A DNA stretch of 64,000 bases from positions 4,464,001 through 4,528,000 of the forward strand of contig NZ_JACIFP010000001.1 of NCBI RefSeq assembly GCF_014197435.1, in the 5' to 3' direction. A program made the position numbers and the translations under genes. This document shows positions 49,650-56,848 of this stretch, piece by piece; position 1 is the first letter of the stretch; the number at the start of each line of letters is the position of its first letter. The notes beneath the pieces were generated by a model that worked only from the letters and a program-made list of their open reading frames with translations, was not told where the DNA came from and searched no databases. The DNA is from Gordonia humi. GTDB taxonomy: Bacteria > Actinomycetota > Actinomycetes > Mycobacteriales > Mycobacteriaceae.

Positions 49650-49976
49650 GGCACTACTCCTTGTCCACTGTGTGCATGTCTGGGTCGCAGACTTCTGCTC
49701 GAGAAGGGGATTTGTGATCCCGTTCATACCTTTCGGTGAGCAAGAACCTATCGCATCAGACGATCATGTCCGGCCACATTCCCGTTTCTTCTGCAGGAGA
49801 ACAGTATTCGTCCGACGCCCGACCCGAACGCAGCGACGCGCGCCGATGTCGTGTCATATCGCCCGGCGTCACGCCGAGTACGCCCGTCAACCCTTCGGAA
49901 TTAATCGGACCGCGGTCCGGTTATGCTGATCGAGTCCGGCGCAGCAGAGCGACGGCGAGACGAAAGCGAGAGGTCA
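49650..49976. other. 327-bp divergent promoter region
   Basis: No gene is evident. It separates the permease and the flavin monooxygenase gene. It contains an AT-richer patch (GGAATTAATC) and the palindrome described separately, followed by the possible -10 TATGCT at 49922-49927 on the plus strand. Confidence 0.6.
49906..49919 (+). promoter_or_regulatory. Perfect 14-bp palindrome in the monooxygenase promoter
   Basis: CGGACCG-CGGTCCG lies directly upstream of the -10-like TATGCT (49922-49927), where a repressor would block RNA polymerase. The regulator is unknown. Confidence 0.5.
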
Positions 49977-51113
49977 ATGCAGTTCGGCATCTTCAGCGTC
50001 GGCGATCTGACCGCCGACCCCACCACCGGCAGCACGGTCAGCGAGCACGAACGGTTGACGGCGATGACCGCGATCGCTCTCAAGGCCGAAGAGGTCGGTC
50101 TCGACGTGTTCGCCACCGGCGAGCACCACAATCCGCCGTTCGTGCCGAGTTCGCCCACCACGATGCTCGGCTGGATCGCCGCGCGGACCGAGCGGCTTCA
50201 GCTCTCCACCGCGACGACCCTGATCACCACGAACGACCCGGTCAAGATCGCCGAAGACTATGCGATGCTGCAACATCTGGCGGACGGTCGGGTGGACCTG
50301 ACCCTGGGCCGCGGCAACACCGGACCGGTGTATCCGTGGTTCGGCAAGGACATCCGCAAGGGCATCCCGATGGCCGTGGAGAACTACCATCTGCTGCGTC
50401 GTCTGTGGCGTGAGAAGAACGTCGATTGGGACGGCGAGTTCCGCACTCCCCTACAGGGATTCACCTCAACCCCCGCTCCGCTGGACGATACGCCGCCGTT
50501 CGTCTGGCACGGCTCCATCCGTTCGCCGGAGATCGCCGAACAGGCCGCGTTCTACGGCGACGGCTTCTTCCACAACAACATCTTCTGGAACAAGGAGCAC
50601 ACCGAGCAGATGGTGAACCTGTACCGGCAGCGCTACGAGCACTACGGCCACGGCTCCGCCGATCAGGCGATCGTCGGACTCGGCGGACAGGTGTTCATGG
50701 CCGAGACCGAGGCCGAGGCCAAGCGGCGCTTCCGTCCGTACTTCGACAATGCGCCGGTCTACGGGCACGGCCCGTCGATGGAGGAGTTCACCGAGATGAC
50801 TCCGCTGACGGTCGGCACTCCGGAGCAGGTGATCGAGAAGACGCTGACCTTCGCCGGCTACGCGGGCGACTACCAGCGTCAGCTGTTCCTCGTCGACCAC
50901 GCCGGTCTCCCGCTGGACCAGGTCCTCGAGCAGGTCGAGATCCTGGGCCGCGAGGTGGTGCCGACCCTGCGCACCGAGTTCGAACGCCGACGCCCGGCAC
51001 ACGTGCCGTCCGATCCGCCGTCGCACGCGGACCTGGTCGCCGCGGGCGCCGACAGCGCTCACCGCAAGGTGATCTCCAGCCCGGCGGTCGCGGCGGCCGA
51101 GGCCGCACGATGA
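49977..51113 (+). CDS. LLM-class flavin-dependent oxidoreductase (CE1758 type)
   Basis: A 378-residue bacterial-luciferase-like enzyme that uses reduced FMN and oxygen. It begins MQFGIFSVGDLTADPTTGST and has VFATGEHHNPPFVPSSPTTM, HLADGRVDLTLGRGNTGPVY and FVWHGSIRSPEIAEQAAFYG, which match the CE1758 subgroup. The last ~40 residues are a basic tail ending PAVAAAEAAR. The ATG at 49977 has AGAGG 4 nt upstream. Its stop overlaps the start of the FMN reductase (ATGA), so the enzymes are produced together, as in the known CE1758-CE1759 pairing. The natural substrate is unknown. Confidence 0.9.
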   Translation: MQFGIFSVGDLTADPTTGSTVSEHERLTAMTAIALKAEEVGLDVFATGEHHNPPFVPSSPTTMLGWIAARTERLQLSTATTLITTNDPVKIAEDYAMLQHLADGRVDLTLGRGNTGPVYPWFGKDIRKGIPMAVENYHLLRRLWREKNVDWDGEFRTPLQGFTSTPAPLDDTPPFVWHGSIRSPEIAEQAAFYGDGFFHNNIFWNKEHTEQMVNLYRQRYEHYGHGSADQAIVGLGGQVFMAETEAEAKRRFRPYFDNAPVYGHGPSMEEFTEMTPLTVGTPEQVIEKTLTFAGYAGDYQRQLFLVDHAGLPLDQVLEQVEILGREVVPTLRTEFERRRPAHVPSDPPSHADLVAAGADSAHRKVISSPAVAAAEAAR

Positions 51114-51769
51114 CCCGCCGGGTGGTGGTCGTCAACGCGGGAGTCTCAGCGGCGTCGTCGACACGGCTGTTGTCCGAACAGCTCGCGGGTGCGGTCGAGG
51201 CCGCGGTGTCTGCGCGCGGAGAGCAGGCGACGATCGACTACATCGACGTCGCATCGCTCGCCCGCGATCTGGCGACCGCGGTGACCTCCGGCGTCGCGTC
51301 GCCCCAGGTCCGCGCGGCGCAGGACGCGATCGCCGACGCCGACGGTCTGATCGTCGCGACACCGGTGTTCGCCGCGTCGTACAGCGGCATCTTCAAGATG
51401 TTCTTCGACGTCCTGGATCCGGACGCGCTCACCGGAGTGCCGGTCCTGGCCGCGGCGACGGCCGGTACACCGCGCCACTCGCTGGTGATCGACCACGCCA
51501 TCCGCCCGCTCCTGGCGTACCTGCGGGCCGAGGTGCTGCCGACGGGTGTCTTCGCAGCGACCGACGACTTCGGTTCCCCCGAACTCGGCACCCGCATCTC
51601 GCGGGCAGGCGCCGAGCTCGCCGACCGCATGATGGTCGGCGGCTCCGTCGCCGGGTTCGGCGGTCCGACGGACGGCGCAGCGGCGCCGCGTCGCAGCGGT
51701 CATCCCACCGATCTGGGACCGGTGGCCGACTTCGCCGACCTGCTGCGCGGGCACACCGGAGAGAAGTAG
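51110..51769 (+). CDS. NAD(P)H-dependent FMN reductase (CE1759 type)
   Basis: A 219-residue flavodoxin-fold reductase that supplies FMNH2 to the monooxygenase. The phosphate-binding start is VVVNAGVSAASSTRLL (residues ~5-20) and the flavin-contact segment is LIVATPVFAASYSGIFKMFF (~80-100). The start ATG overlaps the monooxygenase stop. No other gene follows in this operon. The last ~40 residues (GGPTDGAAAPRRSGHPTDL) are a flexible tail also found in the CE1759 family. Confidence 0.92.
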   Translation: MTRRVVVVNAGVSAASSTRLLSEQLAGAVEAAVSARGEQATIDYIDVASLARDLATAVTSGVASPQVRAAQDAIADADGLIVATPVFAASYSGIFKMFFDVLDPDALTGVPVLAAATAGTPRHSLVIDHAIRPLLAYLRAEVLPTGVFAATDDFGSPELGTRISRAGAELADRMMVGGSVAGFGGPTDGAAAPRRSGHPTDLGPVADFADLLRGHTGEK

Positions 51770-51963: not shown

Positions 51964-52362
51964 ATGTCGAGACCTGATCCCGTCGATAACGCCTACGCGG
52001 GTGGAATCACGATCGGCGCGGCCGCGCTGCTCTTCGTCGGAGGTGTGCTGGAAGCCCTGCAAGGCATCTCCGCGCTCGCCGACGACAAGATATTCGTGAT
52101 CGGCGAAGACTACGTCTACTCGTTCAACCTGACCACCTGGGGATGGATTCACCTGATCCTCGGCATCATCGGCATCGCGGTCGCGATCGGTATGGCGATG
52201 GGTTCCGACTGGGCCCGCATGGCCGCGATCGTCATCGCCTCGGTGTCGATCATCGCCCAGTTCATGTGGCTGCCGCAGCATCCGTGGTGGGCGATCCTCA
52301 TCATCGCCGTCGACGTCATGATCATCTGGGCCGTCAGCACGTGGCGGCTCGACACCGCCTGA
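51964..52362 (+). CDS. DUF7144-like four-helix membrane protein
   Basis: A 132-residue protein with four hydrophobic helices: ~14-36 (ITIGAAALLFVGGVLEALQG), ~58-78 (WIHLILGIIGIAVAIGMAMG), ~82-102 and ~105-125 (WAILIIAVDVMIIWAVSTW). The pattern FVxGVLEALQGISAL and FNLTTWGWIHLI resembles the DUF7144 actinobacterial family of unknown function. AAAGGGAAA lies just before the ATG. It stands alone; a terminator follows and is shared with the WXG100 operon. Confidence 0.75.
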   Translation: MSRPDPVDNAYAGGITIGAAALLFVGGVLEALQGISALADDKIFVIGEDYVYSFNLTTWGWIHLILGIIGIAVAIGMAMGSDWARMAAIVIASVSIIAQFMWLPQHPWWAILIIAVDVMIIWAVSTWRLDTA

Positions 52363-52426: not shown

Positions 52427-52720
52427 TCAGGCGCCGAATGTACGACTGACACGCAGGTCGGTGTCGCGCATCTGCGACGCCGCCTTCTGCACTCCGACCC
52501 CCAACGAGTCGAGCCTGGTCCGCGCGTCGGCGAACAGCTTGTCCCATTGAGCCTGCGACTGCTGGTACGCGTTCGCGCCACCGGAGTCCCAATGACTGGC
52601 GAGCGCGGTCACCTGCCGTTTGAGCTGCCCCGACAGCTCCTCCAACCGCTGAAACTGACCGCGCAGATCCCCCGACAGCGTGTCGAGACTCGCGAAATTG
52701 TATCGAATCACTCCGGACAT
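52427..52720 (-). CDS. WXG100-family type VII secretion protein (Esx-like, partner B)
   Basis: A 97-residue helical-hairpin protein. The turn motif is W44-D-S-G (HWDSGGANAYQQ), a WxxG spacing where most members have WxG. Both halves are amphipathic helices (LDTLSGDLRGQFQRLEELSG, then LFADARTRLDSLGVGVQKAA). It lacks a C-terminal YxxxD/E signal. It lies 26 bp after the other WXG100 gene and probably forms a heterodimer with it. It is the last gene of a six-gene leftward operon. Export would need an ESX machine not present here. Confidence 0.88.
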   Translation of the reverse strand: MSGVIRYNFASLDTLSGDLRGQFQRLEELSGQLKRQVTALASHWDSGGANAYQQSQAQWDKLFADARTRLDSLGVGVQKAASQMRDTDLRVSRTFGA

Positions 52721-52746
52721 GTTCTGTACCCCCTGATCTGCCGGCG

Positions 52747-53070
52747 CTAGAGCGCCAGTGTTCCCTGACCCGAGCCGCCGACCATGGCGGCCGCGGTCGC
52801 GTCCTCGTCGTCGTAGCCGCGGAAGCCGGTGGTCAGCTTGGCCTCGATCTCGTCGAGCGCGTGCTGCAGCCTGGTGGCGGTCTGGTGCCAGTCGGTGTGC
52901 GTACCGTCGAATGTGGTCGACGCCTTGCCGTCCCAGGTGCTGCTGCCGTTCGCCGCCGCCGACTGGATGCGGCCGATGATCCCCTGCATCTCGCTGACTA
53001 TCCCTTTGATACTCGCCGTCGACGCCTGCGAGGCGCCGAGGTCGACATTGAGTCCTGTGGTCACGTGCAT
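52747..53070 (-). CDS. WXG100-family type VII secretion protein with YxxxD signal (Esx-like, partner A)
   Basis: A 107-residue protein with the WXG turn W46-D-G48 (STWDGKAS) between two helices. It has a C-terminal export motif Y86-DDE-D90 (GFRGYDDEDATAAAMV), the YxxxD/E pattern recognised by EccC ATPases. That makes it the CFP-10-like signal-bearing partner of the adjacent 97-residue WXG protein. AAGGGGA lies just before the ATG. It starts 21 bp after the stop of the Ala-rich protein gene. Confidence 0.9.
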   Translation of the reverse strand: MHVTTGLNVDLGASQASTASIKGIVSEMQGIIGRIQSAAANGSSTWDGKASTTFDGTHTDWHQTATRLQHALDEIEAKLTTGFRGYDDEDATAAAMVGGSGQGTLAL

Positions 53071-53091
53071 TCCCCTTCTTCAACTGCCGGA

Positions 53092-54444
53092 TCAGACTGA
53101 TCCGGCGAAATCTGTGGTGTCGGTGCCGAGCCGGAGGGCGACCTCGGCGCCGAACGGTTGCGCGAGCAGCGTCGCGAGGTCCGTACCGGTCGGATCCGCC
53201 TCCGGTGTCGCCGGCGACGTTTCGGTCAGGCGCAGCGGCGTCGGATCAACGGCTCGCCCGGCGGCCGCGACCGCCGTCGATGTCATCGGCACCGGCGGAA
53301 CACCGCTGTACGAGACGGGTGCGGCGGTGCTGATCGATGCCGGTCCGGTATCGGCGACGACGGTCGCATTGCTGGTGACCGGTCGGTCGACGAGTTCGAT
53401 CGGAGTCTCGGCGAGAGACGTCGCGGGCGTGTCGACGGCCTGCACCGCTGGTGTGGAGGCAGCGGGCCGAACCGTCGCCGACGGCGCAGCGGACGTCTGG
53501 ACCGCGGTCGTCGACTGCGGCGTAGTCGGCGCCGTCGCGGTCGCGCACGGTGCGCAGCAGTCGGGCGATGTCGCGGCGGTCGACGCCGTCTCGTCGCCCC
53601 CGACCGCGACATCGCTCTCCGGGGCCGCGTCGCCGTCGACGCCGAGCAGTGACCCCGCGATCTGGACGCCGGCTCGGAACAGCGGCCCGGCCTGTTGCAG
53701 CAGAGTCGACCAGGTGTCGCCGGTCAGAGCGGTCGGCGGATCCGAGACGGAGACCGGTGCGCCGACACCGGCGATGTGCGCGGTCGGCGCCACCAGTTGT
53801 GCCCGGGTCTCGGCCACCACTGCGAGACCTTCGGTGAGCCCTTCGGCGGCGATGCCGAGTGCGGCGATCTGGCCGGGCGGTGTCGCCAGCGCCGGTGCGG
53901 CCGCAGCCAGCAGCCCCGCGGTCTTGGCGACGACGCTCTGCAGTCGGGTGAAGCCCGCACCGACGATCGCCCCGGCCGAAGCGACATCGGACGCCATCGC
54001 CGTGCCCTGCGCCGCGACCTGCTCGGACTGGCCCGCCGTGCGAGTGGCGGCACCGATCGCCGCGGCCGCGGCCTGTCCGGCCCAGTCGATGTCGACGCTG
54101 CTCGCCGCGTCCAGCAGGGCGGACGCACCCGACCGCAGGAGTCCGGCGAGGCCGCCCAGCGATGCGACGGGGTCGGCCCCGCCGGACATCGAACCGGTGC
54201 CGAACGTGCCGAGCAGGTCGACGATCGGCTTCATCAGCGACACCGGATCGATCCCGGTGATCGAGGGGAACGACCGCAGGTTCAGCGACGACAGGTCGGG
54301 CAGGCCGACCTGTGCCGGTGCGTCGAATCGCGGCAGTCCGAGTCCGTCGAGAACCTCGCTCACCGGGGTGTCGAACAGTGCCGTGATCCCGGTCGGCGCC
54401 AGAACGTCGCCCACGGTGAGCCCGTCGGCGTCGCAGGTCATCAT
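53092..54444 (-). CDS. Ala-rich ESX-associated protein, possible large type VII substrate
   Basis: A 450-residue protein I cannot match to a named family. Residues ~1-95 hold short Leu/Pro motifs (GLPRFDAPAQVGLPDLSSLN). Residues ~95-230 are an Ala-rich, helix-prone region with a DWAG turn near 115 (VDIDWAGQAAAAAIGA), reminiscent of WXG or PE/PPE helical hairpins. Residues ~260-420 are a Thr/Ala/Pro-rich low-complexity part, with Cys pairs near 298 (SPDCCAPCA). No signal peptide or YxxxD/E is seen. The ATG overlaps the EspC-like stop (ATGA). Position between EspC-like and WXG100 genes suggests a secreted partner, which is inference. Confidence 0.7.
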   Translation of the reverse strand: MMTCDADGLTVGDVLAPTGITALFDTPVSEVLDGLGLPRFDAPAQVGLPDLSSLNLRSFPSITGIDPVSLMKPIVDLLGTFGTGSMSGGADPVASLGGLAGLLRSGASALLDAASSVDIDWAGQAAAAAIGAATRTAGQSEQVAAQGTAMASDVASAGAIVGAGFTRLQSVVAKTAGLLAAAAPALATPPGQIAALGIAAEGLTEGLAVVAETRAQLVAPTAHIAGVGAPVSVSDPPTALTGDTWSTLLQQAGPLFRAGVQIAGSLLGVDGDAAPESDVAVGGDETASTAATSPDCCAPCATATAPTTPQSTTAVQTSAAPSATVRPAASTPAVQAVDTPATSLAETPIELVDRPVTSNATVVADTGPASISTAAPVSYSGVPPVPMTSTAVAAAGRAVDPTPLRLTETSPATPEADPTGTDLATLLAQPFGAEVALRLGTDTTDFAGSV

Positions 54445-54743
54445 GCCTCCAGACCGGACGCCCCGGCCGTGTCCGCCGCCGACAGCGCGGCCAGACCCGC
54501 CGTGGTCGCCGATGCGGTGCCCCCGTGCACGGCCGCGAGACGGGCGACGGCGGCGAGGTGATTGGCCTCGGCGACGCCGTAGGCGGCCAGGAACTCCTGT
54601 CCGATCAGACCGAATGCGGCGGCCATCACGGCCGCCCGCGCCGTATCGCCGACCGCGGCGCCCGCCGTCGCCGTACCGAGTGTCGCCGACGTCGCGGCGA
54701 ACGCCTCGATCCCTGCCGGGACCGCGTGAACACGACCACTCAT
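54441..54743 (-). CDS. EspC-family type VII secretion target
   Basis: A 100-residue Ala-rich helical protein resembling the EspC/ESX-1 secretion-associated family. It starts MSGRVHAVPAGIEAFAATSA, with a helix-turn-helix layout and a Y55-GVA-E59 (AAYGVAEANH) motif matching YxxxD/E. EspC-type proteins form filaments or export complexes with their ESX system. The start overlaps the YbaB-like gene stop and the end overlaps the next start, both as ATGA, so the genes are strictly coupled. Similarity is by pattern only. Confidence 0.75.
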   Translation of the reverse strand: MSGRVHAVPAGIEAFAATSATLGTATAGAAVGDTARAAVMAAAFGLIGQEFLAAYGVAEANHLAAVARLAAVHGGTASATTAGLAALSAADTAGASGLEA

Positions 54744-55117
54744 GACTCCCCCTTCGACGAAAAGTGCTCTCGGTAGGTTGGACGCACGGTCGGCCCGTTC
54801 GGTTCCATCGACTCGCCGGTGAGTTCGGCGAAGTCCTCGACGAACGCCGCCATGATCTCGGCGCGCTCGGTGAACACCTGGGTCGCCGCACGCACAGCCG
54901 TCCGGACGATCGCCTCCGCCAACGCGATCGGATTCCCTTTGCACGCCCCGGGAAGCAGTTCCAGACCGGTGAGTGCACCCGACACGTCGACGTGGACGAT
55001 CACGCGACCGTCGTCGCCGGTCTCGCGCACCGTCAACGCCCCGAGTCGGGTCTGGACGTCCTCGAGCATCTCGAGCTGACGCTCGGCATTGCGTGCGATC
55101 TCGTCCATCACGCTCAT
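54740..55117 (-). CDS. YbaB/EbfC-like protein in the ESX-associated operon (copy 1)
   Basis: A 125-residue protein with YbaB/EbfC features: an N-terminal helix (MSVMDEIARNAERQLEMLED), a beta-hairpin (GRVIVHVDVSGALTGLELLP) and a long helix (IALAEAIVRTAVRAATQVFT). YbaB proteins bind DNA as dimers, but versions next to ESX genes are thought to have taken other roles, such as EspL-type chaperones. The C-terminus is polar with MEPNGPTVRP. It overlaps both neighbours by ATGA. Confidence 0.8.
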   Translation of the reverse strand: MSVMDEIARNAERQLEMLEDVQTRLGALTVRETGDDGRVIVHVDVSGALTGLELLPGACKGNPIALAEAIVRTAVRAATQVFTERAEIMAAFVEDFAELTGESMEPNGPTVRPTYREHFSSKGES

Positions 55118-55476
55118 CGCAGACTCCCGCCGCGCCGGACCGATCCGGCGTCGACCGCGTCCTCGGAGGCCAGCAGATCGTCGCGGGACGGCAGGCCGAG
55201 CAGCGACAGCGTCTCCTCCGGCACGCCGTCGGCGGCCAGACTCGCCCGTCGTCGGACGCCCGCGGTGACACCGGCATGTCTGCACAACGCGAGGATGTCG
55301 GCGGCGAGCTCGCCCGGGTCGCGGCGGCACTGCGCCGGCTCGAGCCGCATGGCCACCGGCAGTCCGGTCGGGGTGCAGGTCACGACGATTCCGCCGCCGC
55401 GCGAGCGCACCGTGGTCATCCCCTCCGGCGCCGCACCGCCGGGACCTGTGGGTTCGGGTGAATTCTTCGTCTCCAT
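55114..55476 (-). CDS. YbaB-like protein in the ESX-associated operon (copy 2, first gene)
   Basis: A 120-residue protein, first of the leftward operon. Residues ~22-75 repeat the YbaB layout of the next gene: beta strands (GGGIVVTCTPTGLPVAMRLE) followed by a helix (DPGELAADILALCRHAGV). The last part (LSLLGLPSRDDLLASEDAVD) is different and unassigned. It could be related to EspH/EspD-type proteins; I cannot confirm this. The stop overlaps the next start (ATGA). It is divergent from the EspI-like ATPase over 121 bp. Confidence 0.65.
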   Translation of the reverse strand: METKNSPEPTGPGGAAPEGMTTVRSRGGGIVVTCTPTGLPVAMRLEPAQCRRDPGELAADILALCRHAGVTAGVRRRASLAADGVPEETLSLLGLPSRDDLLASEDAVDAGSVRRGGSLR

Positions 55477-55597
55477 GAAGGGTCAGACGCACGCCGGACC
55501 GATCGGGTTCCATTGTCTTTCTCTCGGGCGTGTCGCGGTTCCACGGGCGTAGCGTTCCGCGCACCGCAGGAACACCGCATTCGAGGGGACCACCGCA

Positions 55598-56848
55598 ATG
55601 ACGACCGACTTCGCCTCACCGACCGGATCCGGCACCGGCCCGTACGACCCGGAGACTCCGCCTTGGCTGGTGAGTGCGACTCCGCCGGAACCGGCCGCCG
55701 CTCCGGTAGCGGCCGACCCGACTCCGATCCCGGCGGGCGCGGTGGATCTCTCGCAGATCGTGCCGCCGCCACCGGTCGGCGTCGTCAGCCCGCCCGTCAC
55801 CCCGCCGCGACCGGCACCGCCGCCGCCGATGCCGCCACCGGGCGGTCCCCGGCCGAATTTCCCGAATCCGATTCGCCCGACGCCGCCTCCCACGACCGGG
55901 CAGCTCGGTCCGGCCCTCGACGAGGTCGCACTGATCAGGAAGGCCAGACGCGCGCCGGCGCATGGATGGCGTCGAGCGGTGCACACGCTCAGCGCCGGCA
56001 CCGTGAATCCGGGTGAGTCGCCGGCCGAGCTCGAATACCGCGACCTGCTCGACCGCGTCCGGCAACCGGTCCGCGGCGACTACCGCATCGCGGTGCTCTC
56101 CCTCAAGGGCGGCGTCGGAAAGACCACCACGACCATCGGCCTCGGATCCACGTTCTCGTCTCTGCGCGGCGACCGCGTCATCGCCGTCGACGCCAATCCC
56201 GACCTGGGCACGCTCGCACAGCGCATCCCGCTGCAGACCCAGTCGACGGTCCGCGATCTGCTCGCCGATCCGGTCCTGTCCCGCTACTCCGACGTCCGTG
56301 CGCACACCTCGCAGGCGCCGAGCCGCTTGGAAGTCCTGGCGTCCGAACGCGATCCGGCCGCCGCAGAGGCGTTCGACGAGAGCGAGTACCGCGGCGTCAT
56401 GTCGATCCTGCAGCGGTTCTACAACATCATCCTCACCGACTGCGGGACCGGAATGTCCCACGATGCAATGCGCGGTGTCCTCGACCTGGCCGATGCGATC
56501 GTGCTGGTCAGCTCGCCGGCCCTCGATGGCGCGAGGAGCGCGGGCGCCACCCTCGACTGGCTCCAGGGACACGGCTTCGGTCATCTGATCGGCCGGTGCG
56601 TCGTGGTCCTCAGTTCGGCACGGCCGGGCGCGTCGTCGATCGACGTCGGCAATCTGACCCAACACTTCCTGACCCGGTGTCGAGCCGTTCAGGAGGTGCC
56701 GTTCGACGACCATCTCGCCGAGGGCGCCGACATCGACCTCGATCTCCTCGGCAGACACGCGCGCCGGGCGTTCGTCGAACTGGCCGCCACGATCGCCGAC
56801 GACTTCGGCGGCACTGTGCTGCGACGCCACCCGCCTTTCGAGGGGTGA
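55598..56848 (+). CDS. EspI-like MinD/ParA-type ATPase with Pro-rich N-terminus
   Basis: A 416-residue protein. Residues 1-100 are Pro-rich and disordered (SPPVTPPRPAPPPPMPPPGG). A conserved linker, HGWRRAVHTLSAGTVNPGES (~122-141), matches EspI of ESX-1. The MinD-type domain has P-loop K170-GGVGKTT (LSLKGGVGKTTTTIG), VIAVDANPDLGTLAQR and ILTDCGTGMSHDAMRGVLDL. EspI-type ATPases sense ATP and regulate ESX secretion. It diverges from the six-gene operon and most likely serves the same system. GAGGGG precedes the ATG. It shares a strong terminator with ndh. Confidence 0.87.
   Translation: MTTDFASPTGSGTGPYDPETPPWLVSATPPEPAAAPVAADPTPIPAGAVDLSQIVPPPPVGVVSPPVTPPRPAPPPPMPPPGGPRPNFPNPIRPTPPPTTGQLGPALDEVALIRKARRAPAHGWRRAVHTLSAGTVNPGESPAELEYRDLLDRVRQPVRGDYRIAVLSLKGGVGKTTTTIGLGSTFSSLRGDRVIAVDANPDLGTLAQRIPLQTQSTVRDLLADPVLSRYSDVRAHTSQAPSRLEVLASERDPAAAEAFDESEYRGVMSILQRFYNIILTDCGTGMSHDAMRGVLDLADAIVLVSSPALDGARSAGATLDWLQGHGFGHLIGRCVVVLSSARPGASSIDVGNLTQHFLTRCRAVQEVPFDDHLAEGADIDLDLLGRHARRAFVELAATIADDFGGTVLRRHPPFEG

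Follow-up and report, generated by a model that had tools for sequence, protein, structure and literature searches.

Putative substrate and chaperone genes of a probable ESX-4EVOL-type secretion system dispersed over four loci in Gordonia humi

A 64,000-nucleotide stretch of the Gordonia humi genome (contig C1, positions 4464001-4528000 of a 5.09 Mb assembly in three contigs; "the window" hereafter) carries a compact group of genes typical of ESX or type VII secretion systems (T7SS), and none of the genes for a machine. Six leftward genes face a gene for an EspI-like ATPase, while tblastn with the genome's own EccA, EccB, EccC, EccD, EccE, MycP and Rv3446c-like proteins (E 0.01) finds none of them in the 64 kb. 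This raises the question of which machine the genes serve. The initial annotation of the window had considered two answers, a substrate module that uses an ESX machine in trans, or the displaced accessory part of an ESX system, with the ESX-4 known from the rplQ-truA region in mind. All seven genes and the absence of core ESX genes are as it had described them. ATGA overlaps join the first four leftward genes (n=3), gaps of 21 and 26 bases precede the two WXG100 genes, and espI diverges from the leftward genes across 121 bases:

52427..52720, minus strand: EsxA-like WXG100 protein, 97 residues, W-x-S replacing W-x-G (PF06013, 53.8 bits)
52747..53070, minus strand: EsxB-like WXG100 protein, 107 residues, WDG and a C-terminal YDDED (YxxxD) signal (PF06013, 50.0 bits)
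53071..53091, no strand: gap of 21 bases, the position of PE, PPE and EspG genes in relatives
53092..54444, minus strand: Ala-rich protein, 450 residues, proposed EspE/EspA-like WxG partner substrate (by position, WxG and partner)
54441..54743, minus strand: EspC-like protein, 100 residues, proposed EspF/EspC-like partner (PF10824, 16.9 bits, below cut-off)
54740..55117, minus strand: YbaB-like protein 2 (YbaB2), proposed chaperone (PF02575, 32.2 bits, above cut-off)
55114..55476, minus strand: YbaB-like protein 1 (YbaB1), proposed chaperone
55477..55597, no strand: divergent intergenic region, 121 bases
55598..56848, plus strand: EspI-like MinD/ParA-type ATPase, Pro-rich N-terminus, intact KGGVGKTT P-loop (CbiA/AAA_31 matches)

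No sigma-70-like promoter was found between positions 52000 and 57000 of the window. The genes for EspI, YbaB1, YbaB2, the EspC-like and the Ala-rich protein recur on one stretch in 43 of 52 same-genus genomes, and in 39 of the 52 they are joined by both WXG100 genes. The module is therefore not a chance series of open reading frames.

We consider it likely that the window encodes the substrates and chaperones of a single ESX-4EVOL-type T7SS whose genes occupy four unlinked loci, and we infer that its products are exported. Outside the window, the complete list of core parts is spread over three places. Genome-wide searches covered WXG100, EccB, EccC and EccA; EccD, EccE, MycP and the Rv3446c-like protein were identified in the surroundings of these. 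Exactly two WXG100 matches exist in the genome, both inside the window. The single EccB lies at C1:4123499 with EccE divergent from it (eccB/eccE, the slash standing between divergent genes), 0.40 Mb from the module. The single EccC, a fused EccCa-EccCb with three FtsK-type domains in one frame, lies at about C1:2.271 Mb in a mycP-eccD/eccC-Rv3446c-like block 2.25 Mb from the module, and the only EccA over its cut-off (505.9 versus 466.65 bits) at C1:1.926 Mb, 2.26 Mb from the module. EccD, MycP and the Rv3446c-like protein, identified beside EccC, pass their NCBIfam cut-offs, and EccE is over its Pfam cut-off (41.9 versus 23.7 bits). The four loci are at least 345 kb apart. All core genes are intact open frames, and the Walker A motifs of EccC, the D/H/S residues of MycP, the Walker A motif of EccA and the P-loop of EspI appear intact by eye. 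EccB, EccC, EccD, MycP and a WXG100 pair, the set that marks a T7SSa, thus occur in one genome, and eccB, eccC, eccD and mycP, which the initial annotation had suggested looking for genome-wide, all lie at loci distant from the window. Of its two proposals, the use of an ESX machine in trans fits, as the only EccB, EccC and over-cut-off EccA, with EccD, EccE and MycP beside two of them, stand at three other loci.

A complete ecc cluster directly outside the window was also considered and is rejected: the nearest core genes (eccB/eccE) are about 338 kb away, and there is therefore no ecc cluster just past the window edge.

In the mechanism that we propose, the EsxB-like protein with its YxxxD signal and the EsxA-like protein would form one export pair, and the EspC-like and Ala-rich (WxG) proteins a second one of the EspF-EspE or EspC-EspA type. 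The YbaB-like proteins may act as chaperones of the module, a role for which passages in PMC6107294 and PMC6319747 offer a precedent. Both pairs would bind to the EccC ATPase, whose gene lies 2.25 Mb away, and would leave the cell through the EccB-C-D-E/MycP complex, in trans, while EspI and EccA would assist in the cytosol.

Type VII signals are conserved among relatives (motif counts exclude nine second-cluster loci, described below). The EsxB-like protein has Y..D in 43 and W.G in 44 of 45 aligned sequences, and the WxG of the Ala-rich protein is invariant in 48 of 48, its orthologues being only 26-58% identical to the window protein. The EspC-like protein carries (F/Y)xxxD in 40 of 48. Some family labels of the initial annotation need qualification. 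Both WXG100 proteins match PF06013, but the second has W-D-S instead of W-x-G, and W-x-S is the rule in 43 of 44 aligned EsxA-like sequences. The window EspC-like protein stays below the curated PF10824 cut-off of 23.5 bits, while an orthologue passes it with 32.7 bits. YbaB2 is over the curated PF02575 cut-off (32.2 versus 25.5 bits), but YbaB1 itself matches no Pfam family at E 0.1; DUF2694 is matched in 7 of 29 YbaB1 members. The EspI-like proteins of the 29 best relatives fetched (L013-L041) are 66-83% identical to that of the window. NCBIfam gave no matches for eight module proteins from relatives. The Ala-rich window protein has no match in Pfam or NCBIfam, and Pfam searches with 30 of its orthologues gave no coherent family and three weak WXG100 matches (best E 0.017). 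We rejected its identification as Rv3446c, because the Rv3446c-like gene stands beside eccC instead.

The split is not peculiar to this genome. Locus A, ispH-(mycP-eccD/eccC-Rv3446c-like), and locus B, (eccB/eccE)-manA, are found in all six relatives fetched (G009, G030, G036, G044, G004 and, from another genus of the family, G067), and at locus D cysN lies near eccA in five of them, G036 being the exception. The module shares its fetched stretch with truA in 31 of 43 cases. In all of 17 genomes, our own included, chosen for having all four matches on one contig, no two of the four blocks are closer than 223 kb. Three further genomes whose matches all, or nearly all, share a contig were left out: G041, whose only over-cut-off EccA is in a second cluster, and G005 and G056, in which no module orthologue was found. 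Of 59 same-genus genomes, again with our own, 58 have EccB, 57 an EccC and 58 an EccA that pass the respective cut-off. The comparison covers 80 of 203 relatives, kept from a match listing that also included generic ParA-type proteins. The nine of the 52 genomes without the full module comprise two cut by contig ends (G011, G038), one fetched short (G032), two partial ones (G003, G026) and four with espI alone (G005, G056, G048, G016). Outside the 52 are our own genome, G014, G040, G007, G008, G043 and G054, and the espI-like stretches of the last four hold espI alone or, in G007, espI with two YbaB-like genes. A half-way form is seen in another genus (G064; L300, L193, L256), where the module lies beside cysN, espI beside truA, and the core with eccA clustered elsewhere.

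The origin of the blocks is indicated by nine Gordonia genomes that carry a second ESX region holding the same blocks together, besides the dispersed core or, in G003, instead of it. Pieced together from the nine, its order is eccC/eccD-mycP, eccB/eccE, Esx pair-EspG-PPE-PE-Ala-rich-EspC-like-YbaB2-YbaB1/espI, eccA; in G041, about 34 kb separate eccC from eccB. The dispersed loci correspond to these blocks, with the cuts leaving each divergent pair whole, and the module matches the accessory half of ESX-4EVOL-like clusters in gene set and order. In an EccC tree of 30 rows, 13 dispersed rows and G069 form one clade (support 100/99), which is sister to the clustered rows of G043, G032, G041 and G003 (95/96), and both lie within a clade that is separated from canonical ESX-4 (100/100). 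The labels dispersed, clustered and canonical were assigned by gene order and content, the tree containing no named ESX-4EVOL reference, and eight long or odd rows (G046p, G037x, G065b, G061, G063, G059, G098, G073) are omitted from it. A quick EccC tree of 38 rows and an EccB tree of 35 rows agree in outline, the latter more weakly (support 82). From the position of EccC and the gene content of the clusters, the dispersed system is therefore ESX-4EVOL-like: EccA and EccE are present, and EccC groups with clustered loci of such gene content. EspG and PPE are absent from the window genome and the genes do not form one cluster, so that we call the system ESX-4EVOL-type by descent, and reduced. 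It does not conform to canonical ESX-4, which is without EccA, EspI and the accessory block.

G003 (L230, L269) keeps the Esx, EspC-like, Ala-rich and espI genes of the module and has its only EccB, its best EccC and its only over-cut-off EccA in the second region, whose core may serve the module there.

Several observations weigh against an ESX-4EVOL-type system that exports the module proteins. In an EccC tree of 35 rows under a simple model, with long rows kept, the dispersed rows were split and G061 joined G000, G004 and G044, a placement of G061 that we read as long-branch attraction. The Rv3446c-like gene, a trait of canonical ESX-4, stands beside the dispersed eccC and has no match in the nine clustered stretches, six of which were seen beyond eccC (not L262, L263 and L269). 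PPE and EspG matches occur in canonical-kind genomes too, e.g., G066, G068 and G072, and are therefore no marker of ESX-4EVOL alone. EccE is below its NCBIfam cut-off (68 versus 108 bits). In 12 of 43 modules truA is off the fetched stretch, in some of them with 6-9 kb beyond espI seen; G005, G007, G014, G040, G043 and G056 deviate from the common arrangement; and G023 (L205; an assembly of 280 contigs, 94% complete) has the module and EccA, no EccB match and a weak EccC-family match (1.1e-26). At the protein level, the window EspC-like protein has LxxxD, most others carrying F or Y in place of the L. For the Ala-rich protein there is no family match, and its proposed substrate role is suggested by position, WxG and partner. 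The EspI-like label is likewise suggested by the MinD/ParA-type match, the Pro-rich N-terminus and the expected place.

Among other explanations, the one that survives best, though we regard it as unlikely, is that a canonical ESX-4 was once located at rplQ-truA, that its core has moved away and left the module behind as its accessory part, and that this is the ESX-4 reported for Gordonia (G. bronchialis is listed with ESX-4 only in Table 1 of PMC4791881, and a 2024 paper names ESX-4 for the genus in a passage of PMC11217815). Canonical clusters with core genes indeed adjoin truA in G066, G063 and G068, the Rv3446c-like gene lies beside eccC in both dispersed and canonical kinds, and the PPE and EspG matches of G066, G068 and G072 point the same way. 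Against this stands the full support (100/100) with which EccC is placed with ESX-4EVOL-like clusters and apart from canonical ESX-4. Moreover, the family is represented by 14 genomes outside the genus, of which five (G064, G065, G067, G069, G071) have an EccA over its cut-off; G059, G061, G063, G066, G068 and G072, all with canonical-kind ESX loci, do not, and no match to YbaB, EspC-like, Ala-rich or espI genes was seen at the canonical loci of these six. The displaced-part proposal of the initial annotation is hence wrong in detail, since the trees put the core with ESX-4EVOL-like clusters, and the whole system is dispersed instead of one part having moved from an intact core.

Still less probable is a decaying system in which secretion has ceased. 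The EccC and EccB branches of the window's clade are long, PE, PPE and EspG are lost, the genes are scattered, and inserts interrupt espI in G037 and G058, all of which could be taken as marks of a relic, but frames and active-site motifs of the core (by eye in EccC, MycP and EccA) are intact, the WxG of the Ala-rich protein and the YxxxD of the EsxB-like protein persist as counted above, and so does the split in 17 of 17 genomes. A cytosolic ATPase-YbaB complex, e.g., a ParA-like system for handling DNA into which WXG100 proteins were drawn, is suggested by the MinD/ParA matches of the EspI-like protein and by the Pfam name of YbaB as a DNA-binding family, but is very improbable given the conserved type VII signals of the module proteins, the PE, PPE and EspG genes that many relatives have within this gene row, the position of the same row near ecc genes in the clusters, and passages of PMC6107294 on Mycobacterium marinum, where deletion of espH left espE/espF mRNA unchanged and EspH bound EspE.

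Within the dispersed ESX-4EVOL-type system that we favour, the 21-base gap between the Ala-rich and EsxB-like genes deserves attention. At this position, 24 of the 43 full modules have 2.3-2.5 kb with PE, PPE and EspG genes, which pass their Pfam cut-offs in every example tested; the cassette is absent in 16 and partly seen or cut off in three (G041, G052, G058). PPE and EspG each occur in 40 of 59 same-genus genomes and are concordant in 57 of 59. The window genome has no PPE and no EspG match genome-wide (PE was not searched genome-wide). On an espI tree labelled by hand, cassette loss marks a clade of 15 rows that includes the window, G024 with G050, and G003, which requires at least two changes; G026, outside this tree, is likewise without the cassette. 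EccA is kept in all of these genomes, in G003 with its only over-cut-off copy in the second region. The PE-PPE pair and its EspG chaperone thus appear to have been lost together in the lineage of the window, with EccA kept. We tentatively suggest, as a possibility somewhat short of even, that in most of the genus as sampled a T7SS has been stably dismembered into four separate transcription blocks, with the divergent pairs kept and the PE-PPE-EspG arm naturally deleted in part of it, and that EccA would then have to serve something besides EspG-PE-PPE, most likely the EspC-like/Ala-rich pair and the YbaB chaperones. In M. marinum, according to passages of PMC6107294, loss of eccA1 affected EspE, EspF, EspJ and EspK more than other substrates, which fits EccA serving an EspE/EspF-like pair.

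Further observations concern the surroundings of these genes. The Ala-rich orthologues share a C-terminal D-x-x-L-x-L stretch (consensus DIxLRLG; window 53092-53200), and the PPE proteins of the modules end in a stretch that is similar by eye. Next to the module (window 49923-51769) lie genes for a luciferase-like monooxygenase (PF00296) and, by eye, a flavin-reductase-like protein, and both are found beside it, with 63-90% identity, in about ten relatives. The inserts that split espI in G058 (L252 3434-13800; about 9.5 kb, with a serine-recombinase-like gene) and G037 (L191 from about 12390; about 46 kb) lie in the same codon region (residues 282-289 approximately), and espI may be an integration site. 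G037 has a further, more distant ESX-like locus (L301, C1:349000-369000), which includes two EspI-like genes and a WXG100 gene along with EccC and EccD. A piece of the third contig of the window genome matches two Gordonia plasmids at 94.9-98.4% identity over 34% and 20% of the query, and 7 of the 19 records matched are from Gordonia. In the same genome, FtsK-like, integrase-like and small genes (L010 2282-10545, approximately C1:4110281-4118544), some 5 kb distant from eccB, resemble an integrative element by eye.

Neither a dispersed ESX system nor PE-PPE-EspG in Gordonia was reported in the open-licence literature that we searched, mostly top-ranked results with few subscription journals, and within that scope both appear new in print. 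If ESX systems are identified and counted through clusters, one that is dispersed passes for an incomplete system or for plain ESX-4, and the same may hold elsewhere. The genus offers a natural series of clustered systems, dispersed ones with PE-PPE-EspG and dispersed ones without, so that what EspG, EccA and the YbaB-like chaperones do can be tested outside the tuberculosis germ.

Compared with known systems, canonical ESX-4 (eccB, eccC, eccD, mycP, Rv3446c, esxT/U) shares with the system described here the Rv3446c-like gene beside eccC and the vicinity of the module to truA-rplQ, but the latter has EccA, an EspI-like protein, an accessory block and an EccC placed apart in the tree. The EspF-EspE and EspC-EspA pairs of ESX-1 with the chaperones EspH, EspD and EspL (M. 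marinum, M. tuberculosis) present the same combination of a small partner, a larger Ala-rich WxG partner and YbaB-like proteins, with an EsxB-EsxA pair and an EspI-like ATPase next to them; in contrast, the window Ala-rich protein has no Pfam EspA_EspE match and the core genes are scattered. The gene order of ESX-1 differs from that of the module, and the espACD locus lies away from ESX-1. ESX-4EVOL clusters are described by Newton-Foot et al. (2016, PMC4791881) for Nocardia, Tsukamurella, Segniliparus and some mycobacteria. The Gordonia system differs from these in its four unlinked loci and in the lack of PE, PPE and EspG in the lineage of the window, and resembles them in its ESX-4-related core with EccA, EccE and an EspI-like protein and, in many relatives of the window, in EspG, PE and PPE.

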